Shown here: in pieces, positions 3,750 to 64,000 of the stretch
How positions within the stretch are numbered: position 1 is the first letter of the stretch
Layout of the letters: every line of letters starts with the position of its first letter
Assembly: GCF_011492945.1 (NCBI RefSeq)
Contig: NZ_CP045119.1
Coordinates: 620,001 to 684,000 of the forward strand
Source: Rubrobacter tropicus
GTDB taxonomy: Bacteria > Actinomycetota > Rubrobacteria > Rubrobacterales > Rubrobacteraceae
Direction: 5' to 3'
Length of the DNA: 64,000 nucleotides
The notes under the pieces: generated by a model
The model's input: the letters and a program-made list of their open reading frames with translations, nothing else
Told to the model about the DNA's origin: nothing
Databases searched by the model: none
Program-made: the position numbers and the translations under genes

Positions 3750-3900
3750 ACCAAGGGCTATGGAGTCTTTGGGCTTTTAGATTCTGGAGGCTTCGAGGGG
3801 CGGGGGATGATTCTTGCCTATCAGCCCGCTGCGGCTTCGCCTCCGCTCTCACCATCTGCTTTGTTGCTCCTGGCTGAAAGCTGACCGCTTCAGGTTCAGT
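3750..3900. repeat. Intergenic repeat fragment (GCTGAAAGC family)
   Basis: This gene-free stretch contains the repeat words CGGCTTCGCCTCCGCTCTCA and GGCTGAAAGCTGACCGCTTC, which recur elsewhere in the window. The first part (3745-3818) has the same length and roughly 60 percent identity to 57012-57085, including AATAG at the start and GGGATG..TCTTGCC at the end. It is a degenerate copy of the dispersed repeat family. Confidence 0.55.
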
Positions 3901-10685: not shown

Positions 10686-10851
10686 TAAAGCGGGTTACGG
10701 AGGCATAAAGCCTCCGCAACCCGCGCGGCGGTCAGTAGTCAGCGCGCTCCGGCTTCGCCTCCGCCCTTAGCCTTCGGCTTTTCTTGCCCTTGCTGAAAGC
10801 CGACCGCTGACAGCTGAAAGCTCTGCAGAGAGGTTCATCCTCTCTGCAAAA
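10686..10851. repeat. Structured intergenic repeat, full copy 1
   Basis: The order is TAAAG, then hairpin I (10690-10704 with 10710-10724; 15 bp with one mismatch; loop ATAAA). The centre contains GGCTTCGCCTCCGC and GCTGAAAGCCGACCGCTGAC. Hairpin II follows (GCAGAGAGG 10825-10833 with CCTCTCTGC 10839-10847; perfect; loop TTCAT). It abuts the ferredoxin stop codon, so on the minus strand hairpin II may also act as the ferredoxin 3' end. The same plan recurs near 56791 and 62924. Confidence 0.8.
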
Positions 10852-11121
10852 TCAGGCGTCGAGCACCACGTCCGAGAGGGGGCTGCCGATGCAGATCAGG
10901 CGCAGGCCCTTCTCCAGTTCCTCGTCGCCGATGGCGAAGGCCATGTCCTGGTCGATCTCACCTTCCAGGCACTTCTGGATGCACGTCGTACACGTGCCGC
11001 TGCGGCAGTCGTAAGGAAGCGTGAGCCCGGCCTCCTCCGCCGCTTCGAGGATGTACTCGTCCTCCGCAACGTCGATGGTGAGGCCGCTCTTCTTGAAGGT
11101 GACTTTGTGCATTTTAGCCAT
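10852..11121 (-). CDS. Plant-type [2Fe-2S] ferredoxin
   Basis: The 89-residue protein contains the chloroplast-type [2Fe-2S] binding pattern C-x4-C-x2-C (CRSGTCTTC at about 40-48) plus the distant Cys in LRLICIGSP near residue 78. Fold strands (MHKVTFKKSGLTIDVAEDEYILEAAEEAG) are as in the family. It would be a soluble one-electron carrier. The next gene upstream on the same strand encodes the USP/PCP-reductase/rubredoxin fusion, another iron-binding electron-transfer-like protein. A functional pairing is possible but unproven, and a repeat fragment of 145 bases separates them. Confidence 0.9.
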   Translation of the reverse strand: MAKMHKVTFKKSGLTIDVAEDEYILEAAEEAGLTLPYDCRSGTCTTCIQKCLEGEIDQDMAFAIGDEELEKGLRLICIGSPLSDVVLDA

Positions 11122-11266: not shown

Positions 11267-13600
11267 CTACCTCTGCTCGAACTCTTCACCGGGTGCGCCG
11301 CAAACCGGGCACTCCTCGGGGGGCTGTATGCCCTCCATCTCCTCGCCGCAGGTGCCGCAGATCATCGTTACGGTCATGGGCGGGTGCGGGGCCTCGCCGT
11401 TCTCGGCCTCGATCTTCTCGCCGGTGTCTTTGGCGAGGTCCGCTATGGAGACCTTGCCGGTTATGACGTCTTCCATAGTGGTGCGGGCGCCGCTGAGGGA
11501 GTCCTCGACGAGGGGGAGGTCTATGTGGGTGACGCCTCGCTCGCGGGCGAGCTTCTCGGTCATGTTGCGCGAGATGTTCCGCATGAAGCCCTTGGGCGCC
11601 CGGTCGAGGCGATCTATTGCCTCCTGTGTCCAGGTGAACTCTTTCGAGCCGCCCTCGGGAACCAGCGCACCAGCCTTCTGGAAGGCGGAGTGGTCGATGG
11701 GGCACTTGGCGCCGGTGGTCTCCTGGACCTGTTCTTTGGCGTGGGAGACGGGGCAGCCGCCGGATTTGACCTCGGGGGCCTCGCGGCCGGTCTCCTCGCG
11801 GTACTGCTGCTCGACGTACTCGCGGGTGATGGTCGAGTAGCCCTTCTTGAGCGCGCTCTTCTCTACACGCGCCCTTACGCGGCGCTTCTCCTGCCACTCT
11901 TCGAGGGAGTCGAGCAGGGCCGTCGCGTCCTCTGTCCAGTGGAGCTCGCGGCCGTCGTAGACCTCGGAGAGGTTCATCGTCTCGTCGCCCGCGGTCGTGG
12001 CTATCTCGGCGTCCACCGCGTGGAAGTGGGTGGGGCCGGAGCCGCAGACGGGGCACCTGGCCGGCTTGCCCTTCGCCACGTAGCGGCAAACGTCGCACTC
12101 GAAGCGGTCCTGGCCCTGGGCTGCGCGGTGGATCTCATCCTGCACGTCGGCGGAGACGCCTTCGATGTCGCCCTGGTCCTCTGACTTCCCGAACCCGCCG
12201 CGGCCGGCTTCGAGGATCTCGTCCTTCGTAACCTCGCCGTTGCCGTTCTTGTGACCGTTGCCGTTGGCCTTGCCGTTGGTGGCGCTGTTGCCGTTTGCCT
12301 TATCGGCGGTGCGCTCGTCGAAGTCCTTGAAGAGCGAGTCGATGGGCTTCTCCTCGCCCATTGCCTCGGCCTCGCGCATCTGGTCGCCGATGGCGCGCAT
12401 GGACTCCATGGCGCCGGGGGGGAGGATGCTCTTTATTACCTCGTCTATAACGCCCGTTGTGATTACCGTGTAGCCCTTCTCGATGGCGTAGCGGATGATC
12501 GCGCCCGTCGCCATCCCGACGACGAAGCCCGGGATGCGGTCGAGGCGCTGCAGGGCCTCGTCGGTCCAGGTCATGTGCTCTTCGGCGGTGTAGAGGTCGG
12601 GGGCCTGGTACTCGTAGTTGCCGATGAGGACGTTCGTCGGCAGGTAGCGCATCATGTTCTCGGTGTTGCCGCCGATGTCCATCTCGTCGTCGGAGTGGTA
12701 GCCGATGCGGCCCATCACGACCAGCGTCGGGTTTACCTCGTTCACGTACTTCATGGTCTGCTCGAAGGGCTTGCCGGCCAGCAGCGTCGTCTTGAGCTCG
12801 ACGCCCTCGTCCTCGGCTATCTTCTTGGCGACCTCGAGGTGGGCGGTGTAGATCTTGGCGAGCCCGGAGTCGATGATCTCCTCGTGCAGCTTCTCCTGCT
12901 CCTTGAACCGGAACACCTTCTGGGCCTTGGAGGAGAGAACGCCCGCTATGGAGTGGAACATCGCGTAGTGGAAGTACGGGTCGAAGACCGAGATGGCCTC
13001 GACGGTGCCGCCGAACTCGCGCGCAAGCTCGATGGCCCGCTTGAGGCCGCCGAGCGACTTGGCCGAGCCGTCCACGGCGACGACTATGTGCTCGAAGGGA
13101 CTACGGTCGAGGTCCTTGACGATCAGGGTGTCCGCCTTGGTGAGGCGGCGGACGACGCGCTCGGTGACCGTGCCGAGGACCGTGTCCTTGACGGCGGCCA
13201 TGCCCATCGCGCCTATGACGACGAGGTCGAAGTCGTTGTCGTTTACGTCCTCGACTATGACCTTGAAGTTCTTGCCTTCGAGGGAACGACGGACCAACTC
13301 CACGTCGTACTTCTCGCAGAGGGGCTCCAGCACGTCGATGTAGGAGTCGGTGATTATCTCCAGGCCCTTGGTTATGAGCTGGTCGTGGATCTTGCGCTGC
13401 CGCTTCATCTCGTCTTCGTCCCGGAACTCCTCCGGGAGGCCCGACTCCATCTGTCTGAAGCGGACGTCGTGCATCTTGGCGGCGTAGGCGTGGCAACCCG
13501 CGACCCTGCCCCCGAACTGCCGCGCAACGTCGACGCCTATGACGCACGCCTGGTTGGAGTAGTCCGAGTTGTCGACCGGGACGTAGATCTCTTTGTACAT
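11267..13600 (-). CDS. Multidomain fusion: two USP domains, three PCP-reductase-type domains, two rubredoxin-like domains
   Basis: The 777-residue protein has seven recognisable modules. Universal stress protein domain 1 covers about 1-150 (MYKEIYVPVDNSDYSNQA..., VVIGAMGMAAVKDTVLGTVT). USP domain 2 covers about 168-335 (FEHIVVAVDGSAKSLGGL..., with a modified nucleotide loop MGRIGYHSDDEMDIGGNT). A PCP_red-type helical domain lies at about 345-400 (WTDEALQRLDRIPGFVVGMATGAIIRYAIEKG). After a low-complexity NG-rich linker comes a rubredoxin-like knuckle at about 505-535 (CDVCRY...CPVCGSG). Two further PCP_red-type domains lie at about 555-610 and 665-715. A second rubredoxin-like motif (CGTCGEEME...CPVCGAP) closes the protein. 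USPs bind ATP or are stress-induced, and rubredoxin knuckles carry one Fe. Joining them suggests a stress-linked redox role (inference). Confidence 0.88.
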   Translation of the reverse strand: MYKEIYVPVDNSDYSNQACVIGVDVARQFGGRVAGCHAYAAKMHDVRFRQMESGLPEEFRDEDEMKRQRKIHDQLITKGLEIITDSYIDVLEPLCEKYDVELVRRSLEGKNFKVIVEDVNDNDFDLVVIGAMGMAAVKDTVLGTVTERVVRRLTKADTLIVKDLDRSPFEHIVVAVDGSAKSLGGLKRAIELAREFGGTVEAISVFDPYFHYAMFHSIAGVLSSKAQKVFRFKEQEKLHEEIIDSGLAKIYTAHLEVAKKIAEDEGVELKTTLLAGKPFEQTMKYVNEVNPTLVVMGRIGYHSDDEMDIGGNTENMMRYLPTNVLIGNYEYQAPDLYTAEEHMTWTDEALQRLDRIPGFVVGMATGAIIRYAIEKGYTVITTGVIDEVIKSILPPGAMESMRAIGDQMREAEAMGEEKPIDSLFKDFDERTADKANGNSATNGKANGNGHKNGNGEVTKDEILEAGRGGFGKSEDQGDIEGVSADVQDEIHRAAQGQDRFECDVCRYVAKGKPARCPVCGSGPTHFHAVDAEIATTAGDETMNLSEVYDGRELHWTEDATALLDSLEEWQEKRRVRARVEKSALKKGYSTITREYVEQQYREETGREAPEVKSGGCPVSHAKEQVQETTGAKCPIDHSAFQKAGALVPEGGSKEFTWTQEAIDRLDRAPKGFMRNISRNMTEKLARERGVTHIDLPLVEDSLSGARTTMEDVITGKVSIADLAKDTGEKIEAENGEAPHPPMTVTMICGTCGEEMEGIQPPEECPVCGAPGEEFEQR

Positions 13601-54162: not shown

Positions 54163-55833
54163 GTGAACGAGGAGAACAAACCCAAACGAGACGAGCTTCG
54201 GCCCACGGTCGGCCAGGGTTCCGCGCCCGAGCCGGAGGCTGAGGCTCCCCCGGTGACGCCACCCGGCAACGCGGACGACGGCCGGCGGGGGGACGACACC
54301 TACGTGGCCCGGGTCGCCCGCGGGGCCGGCATCAGCACGGCTGGGCAGGGCATCGGGCGCGTGCTCGGGTACGTGGCGCAGGTCGCCGTCGCCAGGCTGC
54401 TCGGCGCGCAATTCTACGGCTTCTACACCTTAGGCGTGGCCGTGGTCAACGGGGTGCATATAGTCTCCAGGTTCGGCATGGAGAACGGGGTCGTGCGCTA
54501 CGTGGCGCACCACCGCGAGCACGGGGACGAGGCGAGGGTCCGGGGGACCATCGTCCAAGCGCTCCTGATCACGCTGGCCATAAGCCTCGCCCTCTCCGTG
54601 GTGATGTTCTTCGGGGCCGGCCTGATCGCCGACCGTCTGCCAAAGGACGCCCCCGAGATGGTCATGGTGCTCCAGGCTTTCGCTTTCGTGCTGCCGTTCT
54701 TCGTCTTTATGAGCATGACCGCCTGGGCCACGCAAGGCTTCCAGACCGTCACCTACGCCGCCTACATCCAGCAGTTCATACGTCCCGGCCTGTTCTTGCT
54801 GTTCGTCGGAGCCTGCTACCTGATAGGCGCGGGCATCGTAGGCGTCATAGCCGCCTACGCCCTGGCGATGTTCCTCGCCGGCGTCGCCGGGCTCTACTAC
54901 CTCAAAAAGCTCTTCCCGCCGCTCTTCGACAGGCAGGCTCAGACGAAGTTCGAGACGAAGGCGCTCTTCGGGGTCTCCGTGCCGATGAGCGTCACCCAGG
55001 GGGCGCAGTACCTCAACAACTTCTCGGCGATCCTGATCCTCGGCGCCTTTGCGGCGGGATCTCCGGTCGGCATCTTCAACGCCGCGGCCCGCACGGCCAC
55101 CTTTCTTACTGCCGTGCGCTTCGCGTTCTCCGGCATCTTCTCGCCGATCATCTCGGGCCTCCACGCGAGGCAGGACAGGGAGGAGATGGGCCGGCTCTAC
55201 AAGGACGTCTCGCGCTGGATCTTCACCGGCGCCTTCGTCCTGTTCCTGGTGATAGTGGTCTTCGCCCCGCAGGTGATGTCCGTCTTCGGGGCGAGCTTCG
55301 GCCAGGGCGTTACGGCCCTCGTCATCGTCGCGGTCGCCCAGCTCTACAGCTCCTCCGTCGGTCCCGCGCCAAGGATGCTCGCCATGACCGGCAACCAGAA
55401 CTTCGCCATGATCGCCACCTCCGTGGCGGCCGTTACCGGCGTGGTGGTTAGCCTCATCCTCATACCGCGCTACGAGATACTCGGCGCCGCCATAGGGATG
55501 GCGACCGCCATTATCACGGAGAACACGGGCACGATGGCCGCCGTGAAGTGGCGGCTTGGTTTCTGGCCTTTCAACCTCGCCTGGCTCAAACCGCTCGCCG
55601 CCGGCGCCATCGCGGCCACCGCGACGTACGCGATCACGCTCTTCGTCATCCTCCCCGGCGGCCCGATCCCGAACGTCATGGTCTTCGGCGGCTTTCTCGG
55701 CCTCCTGTTCCTCGCCCTCCTGTTCCTCTTCGGCCTCTCGGACACCGACAAGGAGTTCCTCGGCGCTTTCTGGAACGTCGCCAAACGCTACCTGCCGGCC
55801 CGCTTCCGCGGCGGGGGTGAGAACCGTGGATAG
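54163..55833 (+). CDS. Wzx-type polysaccharide flippase (MATE/MVF superfamily)
   Basis: The 556-residue protein has a hydrophilic N-terminal tail (about 45 residues, charged). A 12-14 helix Wzx transporter follows, with ARGAGISTAGQGIGRVLGYVAQVAVARLLGAQFYGFYTLG, RFGMENGVVRYVAHHR, and later AVPGISMPMSVTQGAQYLNNFSAILILGAFA-like segments (read SVPMSVTQGAQYLNNF). It moves lipid-linked repeat units across the membrane, consistent with the Wzy and initiating-transferase genes. GTG 54163; the 3' end overlaps the next sulfotransferase by eight bases. Confidence 0.9.
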   Translation: MNEENKPKRDELRPTVGQGSAPEPEAEAPPVTPPGNADDGRRGDDTYVARVARGAGISTAGQGIGRVLGYVAQVAVARLLGAQFYGFYTLGVAVVNGVHIVSRFGMENGVVRYVAHHREHGDEARVRGTIVQALLITLAISLALSVVMFFGAGLIADRLPKDAPEMVMVLQAFAFVLPFFVFMSMTAWATQGFQTVTYAAYIQQFIRPGLFLLFVGACYLIGAGIVGVIAAYALAMFLAGVAGLYYLKKLFPPLFDRQAQTKFETKALFGVSVPMSVTQGAQYLNNFSAILILGAFAAGSPVGIFNAAARTATFLTAVRFAFSGIFSPIISGLHARQDREEMGRLYKDVSRWIFTGAFVLFLVIVVFAPQVMSVFGASFGQGVTALVIVAVAQLYSSSVGPAPRMLAMTGNQNFAMIATSVAAVTGVVVSLILIPRYEILGAAIGMATAIITENTGTMAAVKWRLGFWPFNLAWLKPLAAGAIAATATYAITLFVILPGGPIPNVMVFGGFLGLLFLALLFLFGLSDTDKEFLGAFWNVAKRYLPARFRGGGENRG

Positions 55834-56761
55834 CTCCCCCGTAAAGGTCCTCTACGTGGCCGGCCTCGGCCGGAGCGGGAGCACGATACTAGCCAACACT
55901 CTGGGCCAGGTTGACGGCTTTTTCTCCGGGGGCGAGTTGAATTTTATCTGGAAGCACGCCCTGATAGAGAACAGGCTCTGCGGCTGCGGCAGGCCCTCCC
56001 GCGAGTGCCCGTTCTGGGGACCTGTCTTCGACGGGGAGTTCGGCGGGCAGAGCGAGTCCCTCGCCCGCGAGATGATGCGCCTTCAGTACTCGGGCGCCCG
56101 GACCCGGCACATCCCCCTCATGCTCACCGAAGGCGGCAGGGAGAAGATAAGGACCCGCCTCGGCAAGTTCCTGGACAACACCGGACGGCTCTACGGGGCG
56201 ATCCGCTCGGTCTCGGGTAGTCGCGTCGTGGTCGACACATCCAAGGAACCGGCCTACGGCTACGCCCTGGGCATGGTCCCCGGCGTAGACCTGCGGGTCC
56301 TGCACCTGGTCCGCGACCCCAGGGCCGCCGCCTACTCCTGGGCCAAAAAGAAGCCCCAGCCCGACAGCGCCGACCGCGAGTTCATGCACCGGAAGACCCC
56401 CACCCAGAGCGCCGTCTTGTGGGACGCCTGGAACGCCGCCATAGAGGCCCTGTGGCGCCGGTCCCCCGATAAGTACCTCCGCCTGCGCTACGAGGATTTT
56501 ATAGCCGACCCACGAACGAGCTTCGAGGCAATGCTCAAGCTCGTAGGGGAAGAGGGGGCGGAGCTTCCGCTCGTCGGAGACCGCGAGGTCAAGCTCGGCA
56601 TCAGCCACACCGCCTCGGGCAACCCAAACCGCTTCGACACCGGGGCCGTCGAGCTAAAGCAGGACCAGGCCTGGACCGAGAGGATGAACGGACGGGACCA
56701 GAAGCTCGTAACCGCCCTGACCCTGCCGCTACTGGCGCGCTACCACTACCCGCTGACGTAA
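55826..56761 (+). CDS. Sulfotransferase family protein 2
   Basis: The 311-residue protein has the 5'-phosphosulfate loop VLYVAGLGRSGSTILANTLGQV near residues 10-30. The 3'-phosphate segment is VLHLVRDPRAAAYSWAKKKP near 155, and YLRLRYEDFIADPRTSFEAMLKLVG follows. GELNFIWKHALIENRLCGCGRPSRECPFW is a Cys-rich feature common to one bacterial subgroup. GTG 55826 has GGGGGTGA upstream and lies within the end of the flippase gene. A second sulfotransferase in the same locus suggests two sulfate positions or two acceptors on the polymer. Confidence 0.85.
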   Translation: MDSSPVKVLYVAGLGRSGSTILANTLGQVDGFFSGGELNFIWKHALIENRLCGCGRPSRECPFWGPVFDGEFGGQSESLAREMMRLQYSGARTRHIPLMLTEGGREKIRTRLGKFLDNTGRLYGAIRSVSGSRVVVDTSKEPAYGYALGMVPGVDLRVLHLVRDPRAAAYSWAKKKPQPDSADREFMHRKTPTQSAVLWDAWNAAIEALWRRSPDKYLRLRYEDFIADPRTSFEAMLKLVGEEGAELPLVGDREVKLGISHTASGNPNRFDTGAVELKQDQAWTERMNGRDQKLVTALTLPLLARYHYPLT

Positions 56762-56785: not shown

Positions 56786-56962
56786 TAAAGCGGATCGCGG
56801 TGGCTACATGCCACCGCGATCCGAACGGTCAGCAGTCAGCCCGCTCCGGCTTCGCCTCCGCTTTCAGCCATCAGCGGCCGGCTTTTTGCCCTTGCTGAAA
56901 GCTGACCGCTGAAAGCTGACAGCCTTCCAAAGAGGCCCAACCTCTTCGCAAACCGCTTTAGG
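56786..56962. repeat. Structured intergenic repeat, full copy 2
   Basis: Plan as in copy 1. ATAAAG is followed by hairpin I (CGGATCGCGGTGGC 56791-56804 with GCCACCGCGATCCG 56810-56823, perfect 14 bp, loop TACAT). The centre has CCGGCTTCGCCTCCGCTTTC and GCTGAAAGCTGACCGCTGAA. Hairpin II is AAGAGG (56930-56935) / CCTCTT (56941-56946) with loop CCCAA. It ends CGCAAACCGC. Confidence 0.85.
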
Positions 56963-61869: not shown

Positions 61870-61954
61870 GGGGGCATGGCAGAGCGGACGAATGCGCTGG
61901 TCTTGAAAACCAGAGGCGCCAAAACGCCCGAAGGTTCGAATCCTTCTGCCCCCG
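61870..61954 (+). tRNA. tRNA-Ser (anticodon UGA)
   Basis: Acceptor stem GGGGGCA (61870-61876) pairs with TGCCCCC (61947-61953), with G as discriminator at 61954. The anticodon arm is CTGGT-CTTGAAA-ACCAG with anticodon TGA (61904-61906). There is a long class II variable arm (about 61914-61929), and the T arm GAAGG-TTCGAAT-CCTTC spans 61930-61946. The 3' CCA is not encoded. Length 85 bases, standard for serine tRNA. Confidence 0.93.
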
Positions 61955-62919: not shown

Positions 62920-63092
62920 TAAAGCGGGTTGCGGTGGTATTGAACCACCGCAACCCGCGCTATCGGCTATCGGCTATCGGCTATCGGCTATCGGCTATCG
63001 GCCGTCAGCCATCGGCCAAAGAAAAGGCAGCCGAAAGCTGATCGCTGAAAGCTGACGGCGATTGCAGGGAGGTCCAACCTCCCTGCAATCTG
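62920..63092. repeat. Structured intergenic repeat, full copy 3
   Basis: Plan as in copies 1 and 2. TAAAG is followed by hairpin I (GCGGGTTGCGGTGGT 62924-62938 with ACCACCGCAACCCGC 62944-62958, perfect 15 bp, loop ATTGA). A 7-base repeat CTATCGG comes next, six perfect copies (62960-63001), then CGAAAGCTGATCGCTGAAAG. Hairpin II is ATTGCAGGGAGG 63061-63072 / CCTCCCTGCAAT 63078-63089, perfect 12 bp, loop TCCAA. It ends at the 3' end of the GH5 gene. Confidence 0.88.
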
Positions 63093-63094
63093 CT

Positions 63095-64000
63095 CTAGTA
63101 ACCCTTCGCGGCGTAGTGGGCGTTCTCGTCCTCGTAGGAGCGCACGTAGTTGCCGCCGCCGGTGCCGGACCCCGAGTAGTAGTCGAAGTACTGGTGGGCC
63201 GTGTAGCGGACGTTGGGTATGCTGGTGGGGATCCAGGGTCCGTTGGGGTGGTGGTCCACGCACTCGTCCACGCTGGCCCTGTAGGTGGTGACGGCGATCG
63301 TGGTCCTGTCTCCGCGCCCGCGGATATCGGAGACGACGGAGCGGGTGATCGCCTCCCACGTCTGGCCCTGGGTCTTTCCGCGGGCCGGGACGATGCCCTT
63401 CTTGCCGTTGGGCTCGTTCATCAGGTCGTACACGATGACCGTCGGGTCCGAGCCGAACTGGGCGGAGAGCCTTTTCCACAGGTCCCTGAAGTGGCCCACC
63501 GTGCAGCGGGGGGAGTTGAGGGCCTGTTTGCCGGTGCCGTCGTGGCCGCCGATGGCCGCCGTCCAGTAGCCGCCGTAGTTGTGGCAGTCGAGCACGACCT
63601 TGAGGCCCGCCGCCCCGGCGTTGCGGACCGAGCGCTTCAGCCGCGCGAGCTCGGCCGTCTTCAGGCCGCCCCCGAGCACCGGCTGCAGGCGCTCCCACCG
63701 GAACCCGATCCTGACGATCCCCACCCCCTCGGAGCGCAGGTATCCGAAGGAGTTCATCCCGCCGTTGACCGCCGGGTCCGAGGGGGTGGGGTTGACGGTC
63801 GGGTACCAGTAATCTTCGCCGTAGACGCCTGGTGCCCTGTTGGAGTGGGTGCCCTCTTCCCACCGCTGCCCGCCCGAGAAGTTGACGCCGCGCCACGCCC
63901 CTGGCACGTCCAGGTGCCGCTTCACGAGCGCGGCCTGGTAGCCGGGTTTTGCGACGGCTATGGGGTTGGGGCCGCCCGCCCCCTCGCCCACGCTCATCCA
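63095..64000 (-). CDS. Glycoside hydrolase family 5-type protein (5' end outside window)
   Basis: The frame is open to the last base of the window, so the N-terminus is missing or just at its edge (an internal ATG lies at 63997). It carries WRGVNFSG, GYLRSEGVGIVRIGFRWERLQP, LKVVLDCHNYGGYW, VIVYDLMNEPNG (the acid/base Glu in NEP) and VRYTAHQYFDYYSGSGTGGG (His-Tyr pair). These are in the order of GH5 cellulase-type hydrolases. The nucleophile Glu is not obvious. The C-terminus YVRSYEDENAHYAAKGY resembles the natural end of related actinobacterial proteins, so the protein is probably not truncated, but the repeat copy 3 begins immediately after its stop codon. Confidence 0.8.
   Translation of the reverse strand, partial: WMSVGEGAGGPNPIAVAKPGYQAALVKRHLDVPGAWRGVNFSGGQRWEEGTHSNRAPGVYGEDYWYPTVNPTPSDPAVNGGMNSFGYLRSEGVGIVRIGFRWERLQPVLGGGLKTAELARLKRSVRNAGAAGLKVVLDCHNYGGYWTAAIGGHDGTGKQALNSPRCTVGHFRDLWKRLSAQFGSDPTVIVYDLMNEPNGKKGIVPARGKTQGQTWEAITRSVVSDIRGRGDRTTIAVTTYRASVDECVDHHPNGPWIPTSIPNVRYTAHQYFDYYSGSGTGGGNYVRSYEDENAHYAAKGY

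Follow-up and report, generated by a model that had tools for sequence, protein, structure and literature searches.

ISY100 inserts at TA and duplicates it (PMC2170065), and the target preference of IS630 is for TA within CTAG, going by the title of the work of Tenzen and Ohtsubo (1991) as cited in PMC2170065. The repeat unit of pneumococcus (RUP), a small non-coding repeat of 107 bp present in about 100 copies, with short terminal inverted repeats and a terminal TA, has been attributed to the IS630-Spn1 transposase acting in trans (PMC2229807). Correia/NEMIS, ERIC and other TA-ended bacterial MITEs are shorter than 200 bp, have TA termini and fold into stem-loops, and such elements are mostly A+T-rich; the Caulobacter intergenic repeat (CIR) consists of two long inverted-repeat arms and a linker, lacks a clear terminal inverted repeat and carries a GANTC motif at the loop (PMC2229807). 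Here we describe an apparently undescribed repeat family of small non-coding mobile elements in Rubrobacter tropicus, which resembles each of these systems in part. With IS630 it shares the CTAG target, as far as that title indicates the preference, this being the pattern at the element's clean empty site, but neither the genome nor the relatives' loci examined yielded an IS630-type gene with the element's ends. Like RUP it is a small non-coding repeat of high copy number with short terminal inverted repeats and a terminal TA; however, RUP measures 107 bp and has a known likely source in IS630-Spn1, whereas no source was found for the present element, which is further set apart by AAGCGG ends, GC-richness, two terminal hairpins, a core of heptads and ends that double as stop codons. 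Unlike the Correia/NEMIS and ERIC group, with which a sequence relation was compared through Rfam alone, it is about 60% GC and has a separate hairpin at each end. It shares two arms and a linker with CIR but has terminal repeats and a TA target. It is a new MITE-like family, confined to one lineage and distinguished by unusual terminal hairpins and by its seating at stop codons; a class of transposase can be proposed for it. A literature search found no paper on such a repeat in Rubrobacter.

The 64,000-nucleotide stretch analysed here (positions 620,001 to 684,000 of contig NZ_CP045119.1; the window) contains three copies. A preliminary description had placed them at 10686, 56786 and 62920 and given them a common architecture of TAAAG, a hairpin I of 14-15 bp with a 5-base loop, a centre and a hairpin II with a 5-base loop. 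All three are present at these places and built as it described, their centre words being GCTGA words, and the two compensated differences that it pointed out in hairpin I (G-C in copy 3 and A-T in copy 2 at position 5; T-A and C-G, respectively, at position 7) are correct. What it missed was the inverted-repeat right end, the copies elsewhere in the genome, the coincidence of the right ends of copies 1 and 3 with stop codons, and a fragment of the family at 3823-3889 (plus strand) that comprises core only (model positions 53-119; 45 bits, E 4.5e-12). Copy 1, full length by the covariance model, occupies 10686-10855 of the plus strand (155 bits). Its hairpin I (10690-10724) has 15 positions with one A-C mismatch and the loop ATAAA, and its hairpin II (10824-10848) has 10 bp and the loop TTCAT. 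The right terminal repeat of this copy has decayed, and its right end is the TGA stop (10852-10854) of a minus-strand gene for an 89-aa 2Fe-2S ferredoxin-like protein (10852-11121). Adjoining the latter, at 11267-13600, is a gene for a 777-aa protein in which, by inspection of the translation, universal-stress-protein-like domains and rubredoxin-like metal-binding motifs are apparently joined. Copy 2 (56786-56960, plus strand, 181 bits) is complete with both terminal repeats: the left end, TAAAGCGG (56786-56793, plus strand), is the target TA followed by AAGCGG, and the right end, CCGCTTTA (56953-56960, minus strand), is its inverted repeat. A sulfotransferase-like gene (55556-56761, plus strand; function assigned by eye, start codon uncertain) ends 24 bases before it. 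Copy 3 (62920-63097, plus strand, 150 bits), also complete, has a 15-bp hairpin I with the loop ATTGA (62924-62958) and the right end CTGCTCTA (63090-63097, minus strand), in which CTA at 63095-63097 is the TAG stop of an opposing glycoside-hydrolase-like gene (300 aa, function assigned by eye; 63095-63997, minus strand), which thus ends exactly in the element. The left arm of copy 3 (62960-63002) is unlike that of the other copies in being a tandem run of the 7-base word CGGCTAT, so the core can grow or be replaced by simple heptad expansion. A scan of the window against Rfam at gathering thresholds gave no match to the element; the sole match was a tRNA gene at 61870-61954.

As read from 100 copies, a complete element runs, outer end to outer end, through TAAAGCGG, hairpin I, core, hairpin II and CCGCTTTA. 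It is about 120-185 bp long, has no coding capacity and is dispersed in many copies, in keeping with bacterial MITEs in general, which are shorter than 200 bp. The body extends from AAGCGG on the left to CCGCTT on the right and is flanked by TA on both sides. In intact copies the ends are inverted repeats of each other, as in MITEs, with the consensus CTAAAGCGG...CCGCTTTAG when the flanking base is included; this base is C at 56 of 75 left ends and G at 50 of 71 right ends. One long hairpin lies just inside each end. Hairpin I is about 15 bp long, with a loop of mostly 3-5 bases, and its first GCGG belongs to both the hairpin and the end of the element. Between the hairpins is a palindromic core of 7-base GCTGANN words, in which TCAGC and GCTGA recur at 7-base spacing; it folds back on itself and bears a GGCTTCGCC side hairpin. 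Partial copies have lost hairpin I in some cases (TAAAGCGGTCAGC) and hairpin II in many.

A genome-wide search with a covariance model built from 15 copies gave at least about 145-150 copies, most of which cover all 169 model positions. A DNA search of the same genome listed 308 candidate places, and all 40 that were scored matched. Every copy of the family is on the 4.38-Mb contig (the chromosome). The chromosomal stretch from 3.6 to 4.1 Mb (3600001-4100000) has just two weak copies and the second contig, a replicon of 205 kb, has none, which suggests that these parts were acquired later or that the family is inactive. Rubrobacter marinus is the source of the sole plasmid record with similarity to a part of the second contig; plasmid and phage collections searched with the family consensus gave no match. 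Copies differ from each other by about 20%, and no two of 100 compared are more than about 92% identical, so there is no support for recent movement; given these identities, and with no source transposon found in the searches described below, the family may be inactive in this genome.

Flanking genes in genomes of the same genus are roughly 70-90% identical to those of R. tropicus, which makes the flanks comparable across relatives. Opposite the copy at chromosome positions 2392657-2392810, the same-genus genome G004 is cleanly empty and shows C-TA-G just once: it reads GGTC-C-TA-G-AGGTAGGGG (GGTCCTAGAGGTAGGGG), as against ggtc[TAAAGCGG...CCGTTTCA]gtggtagg in R. tropicus. The body of this copy is AAGCGG...CCGTTT and its right-hand TA is now CA, while the TAG of the empty site is the stop of a convergent gene. 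Target duplication of the kind expected of a MITE is thus seen at this one site, which is clean on both sides, and insertion at TA with TA duplicated and a preference for CTAG is as in IS630/Tc1-mariner elements. At the copy at 936529, the relatives G003, G004 and G005 have C-TAG stops exactly where the element starts, the right side having decayed; at the copy at 473432, the five relatives G002 to G006, which lack the element there, have the end of the gene at an identical codon position, with TAT/TAC-TAG as against TAT-TAGAGCGG in R. tropicus; and the copy at 943630 gave a looser empty-site match. In the relative G005 the gene end matching the copy at 473432 is duplicated in tandem (contig G005:C90; L343, L350). 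Citrate-synthase relatives were also sought in named genomes, with neither a Rubrobacter nor an empty site among the results.

The stop codons at these sites are part of a wider pattern in the family. By a simple coding model, 32 of the 72 intact left ends open with three bases that serve as the in-frame stop of the upstream gene, and 16 of the 46 intact right ends close with the in-frame stop of an opposing gene; at none of the intact ends is a gene interrupted in a different frame. TAA, TAG and TGA are all used, and C or T precedes the stop at 46 of these 48 element ends, compared with 101 of 195 predicted ordinary genes. Seating of this kind involves 45 copies, about half of those that keep an intact end. 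By gene calls that are crude, stop codons account for about 20-30% of the YTAR sites in non-coding DNA, roughly half the frequency at which the element occupies them, so that a true preference, or additional selection against copies in operons and promoters, may contribute. Of 100 copies, 57 are flanked by convergent genes and 4 by divergent genes; an element-poor stretch used for comparison has 47 convergent among 407 gene pairs. The neighbouring genes are varied, and copies occur in either orientation.

We consider it probable that the copies are MITE-like, non-autonomous DNA transposons with the body AAGCGG...CCGCTT, inserted at TA targets by an IS630/Tc1-mariner-type transposase supplied in trans. 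Such a transposase would use the TA within YTAR (often CTAG) as its target and duplicate that TA upon insertion of the element. Where the target is the TA of a TAG or TAA stop, the first A of the element would turn it into TAA and so rebuild the stop, and, because the element starts with A, the protein would be left unchanged; the rebuilt TAA could later drift to TAG or TGA. Copies inside genes, operons and promoters would be removed by selection, which would leave those at stop codons and between convergent genes. The hairpins would matter at the DNA level, for example in recognition by the transposase, and their arms would stay complementary through copying and not through selection on RNA. 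More tentatively, and with somewhat less than even confidence, we propose that the family uses stop codons as a safe landing site, its YTAR target taking in TAG and TAA stops and its first base rebuilding the stop, that it settles between convergent genes with both proteins intact, and that its hairpins are kept perfect by copying or inversion of DNA arms during transposition, mimicking the covariation of an RNA. The family shows a simple route by which a transposon can insert at gene ends at no cost to the protein.

The preliminary description had suggested looking for a transposase with matching ends, and in the loci examined, in this genome and in its relatives, none was found. The single IS630-type gene of the genome has terminal repeats AGATAGCAACTGGC..., unlike the element's ends; among the IS630-type loci examined in relatives there is no pair of ends that matches, and when stretches of this genome, the whole second contig among them, were scanned for pairs of element ends, none enclosed a transposase. 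Since the IS630-type ends do not match, we do not file the element as an IS630 derivative, and that it works like one is our inference. Other routes of transposition fare worse. An element of the IS5 kind, duplicating a 4-bp YTAR target and not the 2-bp TA, is improbable: the target consensus is indeed YTAR and some copies have identical 4-mers at both ends (CTAA/CTAA, CTAG/CTAG), but such identity occurs in 6 of 41 copies where shuffling predicts 4.8, and the commonest combination of ends is CTAA/TTAG. A 4-bp duplication was rejected as not rising above the shuffles. Even less credible is mobilisation by a Y1 transposase (IS200/IS605-like, RAYT), as for palindromic repeats of the REP/BIME type. 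The element does resemble such repeats in its high copy number, intergenic location, palindromic build and hairpin ends; however, it has terminal inverted repeats and TA on both sides, and REPs are 20-40 bp long (PMC3733652). A search of the genome for the Y1 transposase domain (PF01797) gave 0 matches, which contradicts a Y1/RAYT system.

The pairing of the hairpins was said in the preliminary description to be kept while sequence drifts. This holds strongly over 104 copies in an alignment fitted to the covariance model: two-sided changes were found in 15 of 15 pairs of hairpin I and 8 of 8 of hairpin II; cells changed on both sides of a pair numbered 332, far above the 88±8 in shuffles; and 95.3% of cells paired, compared with 30-49% when partners were slid by 1-3 columns. 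A model-free scan found left-end stems of 10 or more pairs in 68 of 100 copies, with 36 different stem words, and stems of this length in 5 of 1,000 random places in the copies' flanks. Neither of the outcomes that the preliminary description had named as refuting, a scarcity of further copies or uncompensated drift of the stems, was seen within the genome, which holds at least about 145 copies. Covariation of this strength, together with the location directly after stop codons, speaks for a functional structured RNA under selection for base pairing, such as a cis-regulatory 3′ UTR element or a small RNA. In a selected one-strand RNA, G-U intermediates should exceed A-C. The counts, which come from copies that share ancestry and are thus not independent events, are equal in hairpin I (G-U 27, A-C 28), so neither strand's RNA is favoured there; they are 36 and 21 in hairpin II and 74 and 41 in the core, the last leaning towards one strand and leaving some room for an RNA role of the core. 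Under the same caveat, the loops of hairpin I occur in both orientations (ATTGA 10, TCAAT 6; AATGA 3, TCATT 1; CTTGA 2, TCAAG 1; TGATC 2, GATCA 1), as expected if the hairpin were inverted as DNA. The varied neighbours, the use of either orientation and the lack of an Rfam match at gathering thresholds also speak against an RNA, as do copies at the same site in the relatives G006 and G008 (L385, L389), presumably inherited from a common ancestor, whose stems differ by single uncompensated changes in this one orthologous pair. Hairpin I stems are about 94-95% Watson-Crick despite the roughly 20% difference between copies, which suggests that the copies diverged for the most part before they inserted, in active lineages whose hairpins were intact. 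The evidence from hairpin I favours a DNA palindrome rather than a functional RNA, and we give the RNA little chance. Of the two possibilities offered in the preliminary description, a functional RNA or a palindromic mobile element, the latter is well supported and the former is not needed; the strand symmetry of hairpin I, its inverted loops and the boundaries at stop codons and TA targets had been overlooked. Strong covariation can mark a DNA palindrome instead of an RNA, and the balance of G-U and A-C together with inverted loops is a test usable by others. Rather more room, though still a minor share, goes to a bidirectional terminator cassette between convergent genes that spread by its usefulness, which would be compatible with a mobile origin. 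The 57 of 100 convergent settings and the long hairpins right after stops fit such a role, and in an intrinsic-terminator scan that covered copies 1 and 2, hairpin I of copy 2 was terminator-like on the minus strand, with a weak CTTTA tail. The same scan found no terminator-like site within copy 1, however, and hairpin I abuts the stop codon without a T run. Long hairpins shortly after the stop are found in 7 of 442 element-less chromosomal genes, several of these being ordinary T-run terminators, and hairpins following stops in general were rejected as an explanation, being this rare without the element.

To return to the putative transposon, the same covariance model found copies in a genome of another genus of the family (G014) and in G006, G008 and G002, with the same ends and plan and with different hairpin sequences. 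No copy scored above threshold in the same-genus genomes G003, G004, G005 and G007, and genomes of other families of the phylum have none by this model. A patchy spread among related species suits a mobile element. This genome-shaping repeat family, absent from Rfam, is thus restricted to one bacterial family among the genomes searched. A second, related-looking repeat, with TCAGC/GCTGA words at 8-base spacing, was seen at L163:2840-3010, and many contigs of the relative G006 contain scattered short matches to it.
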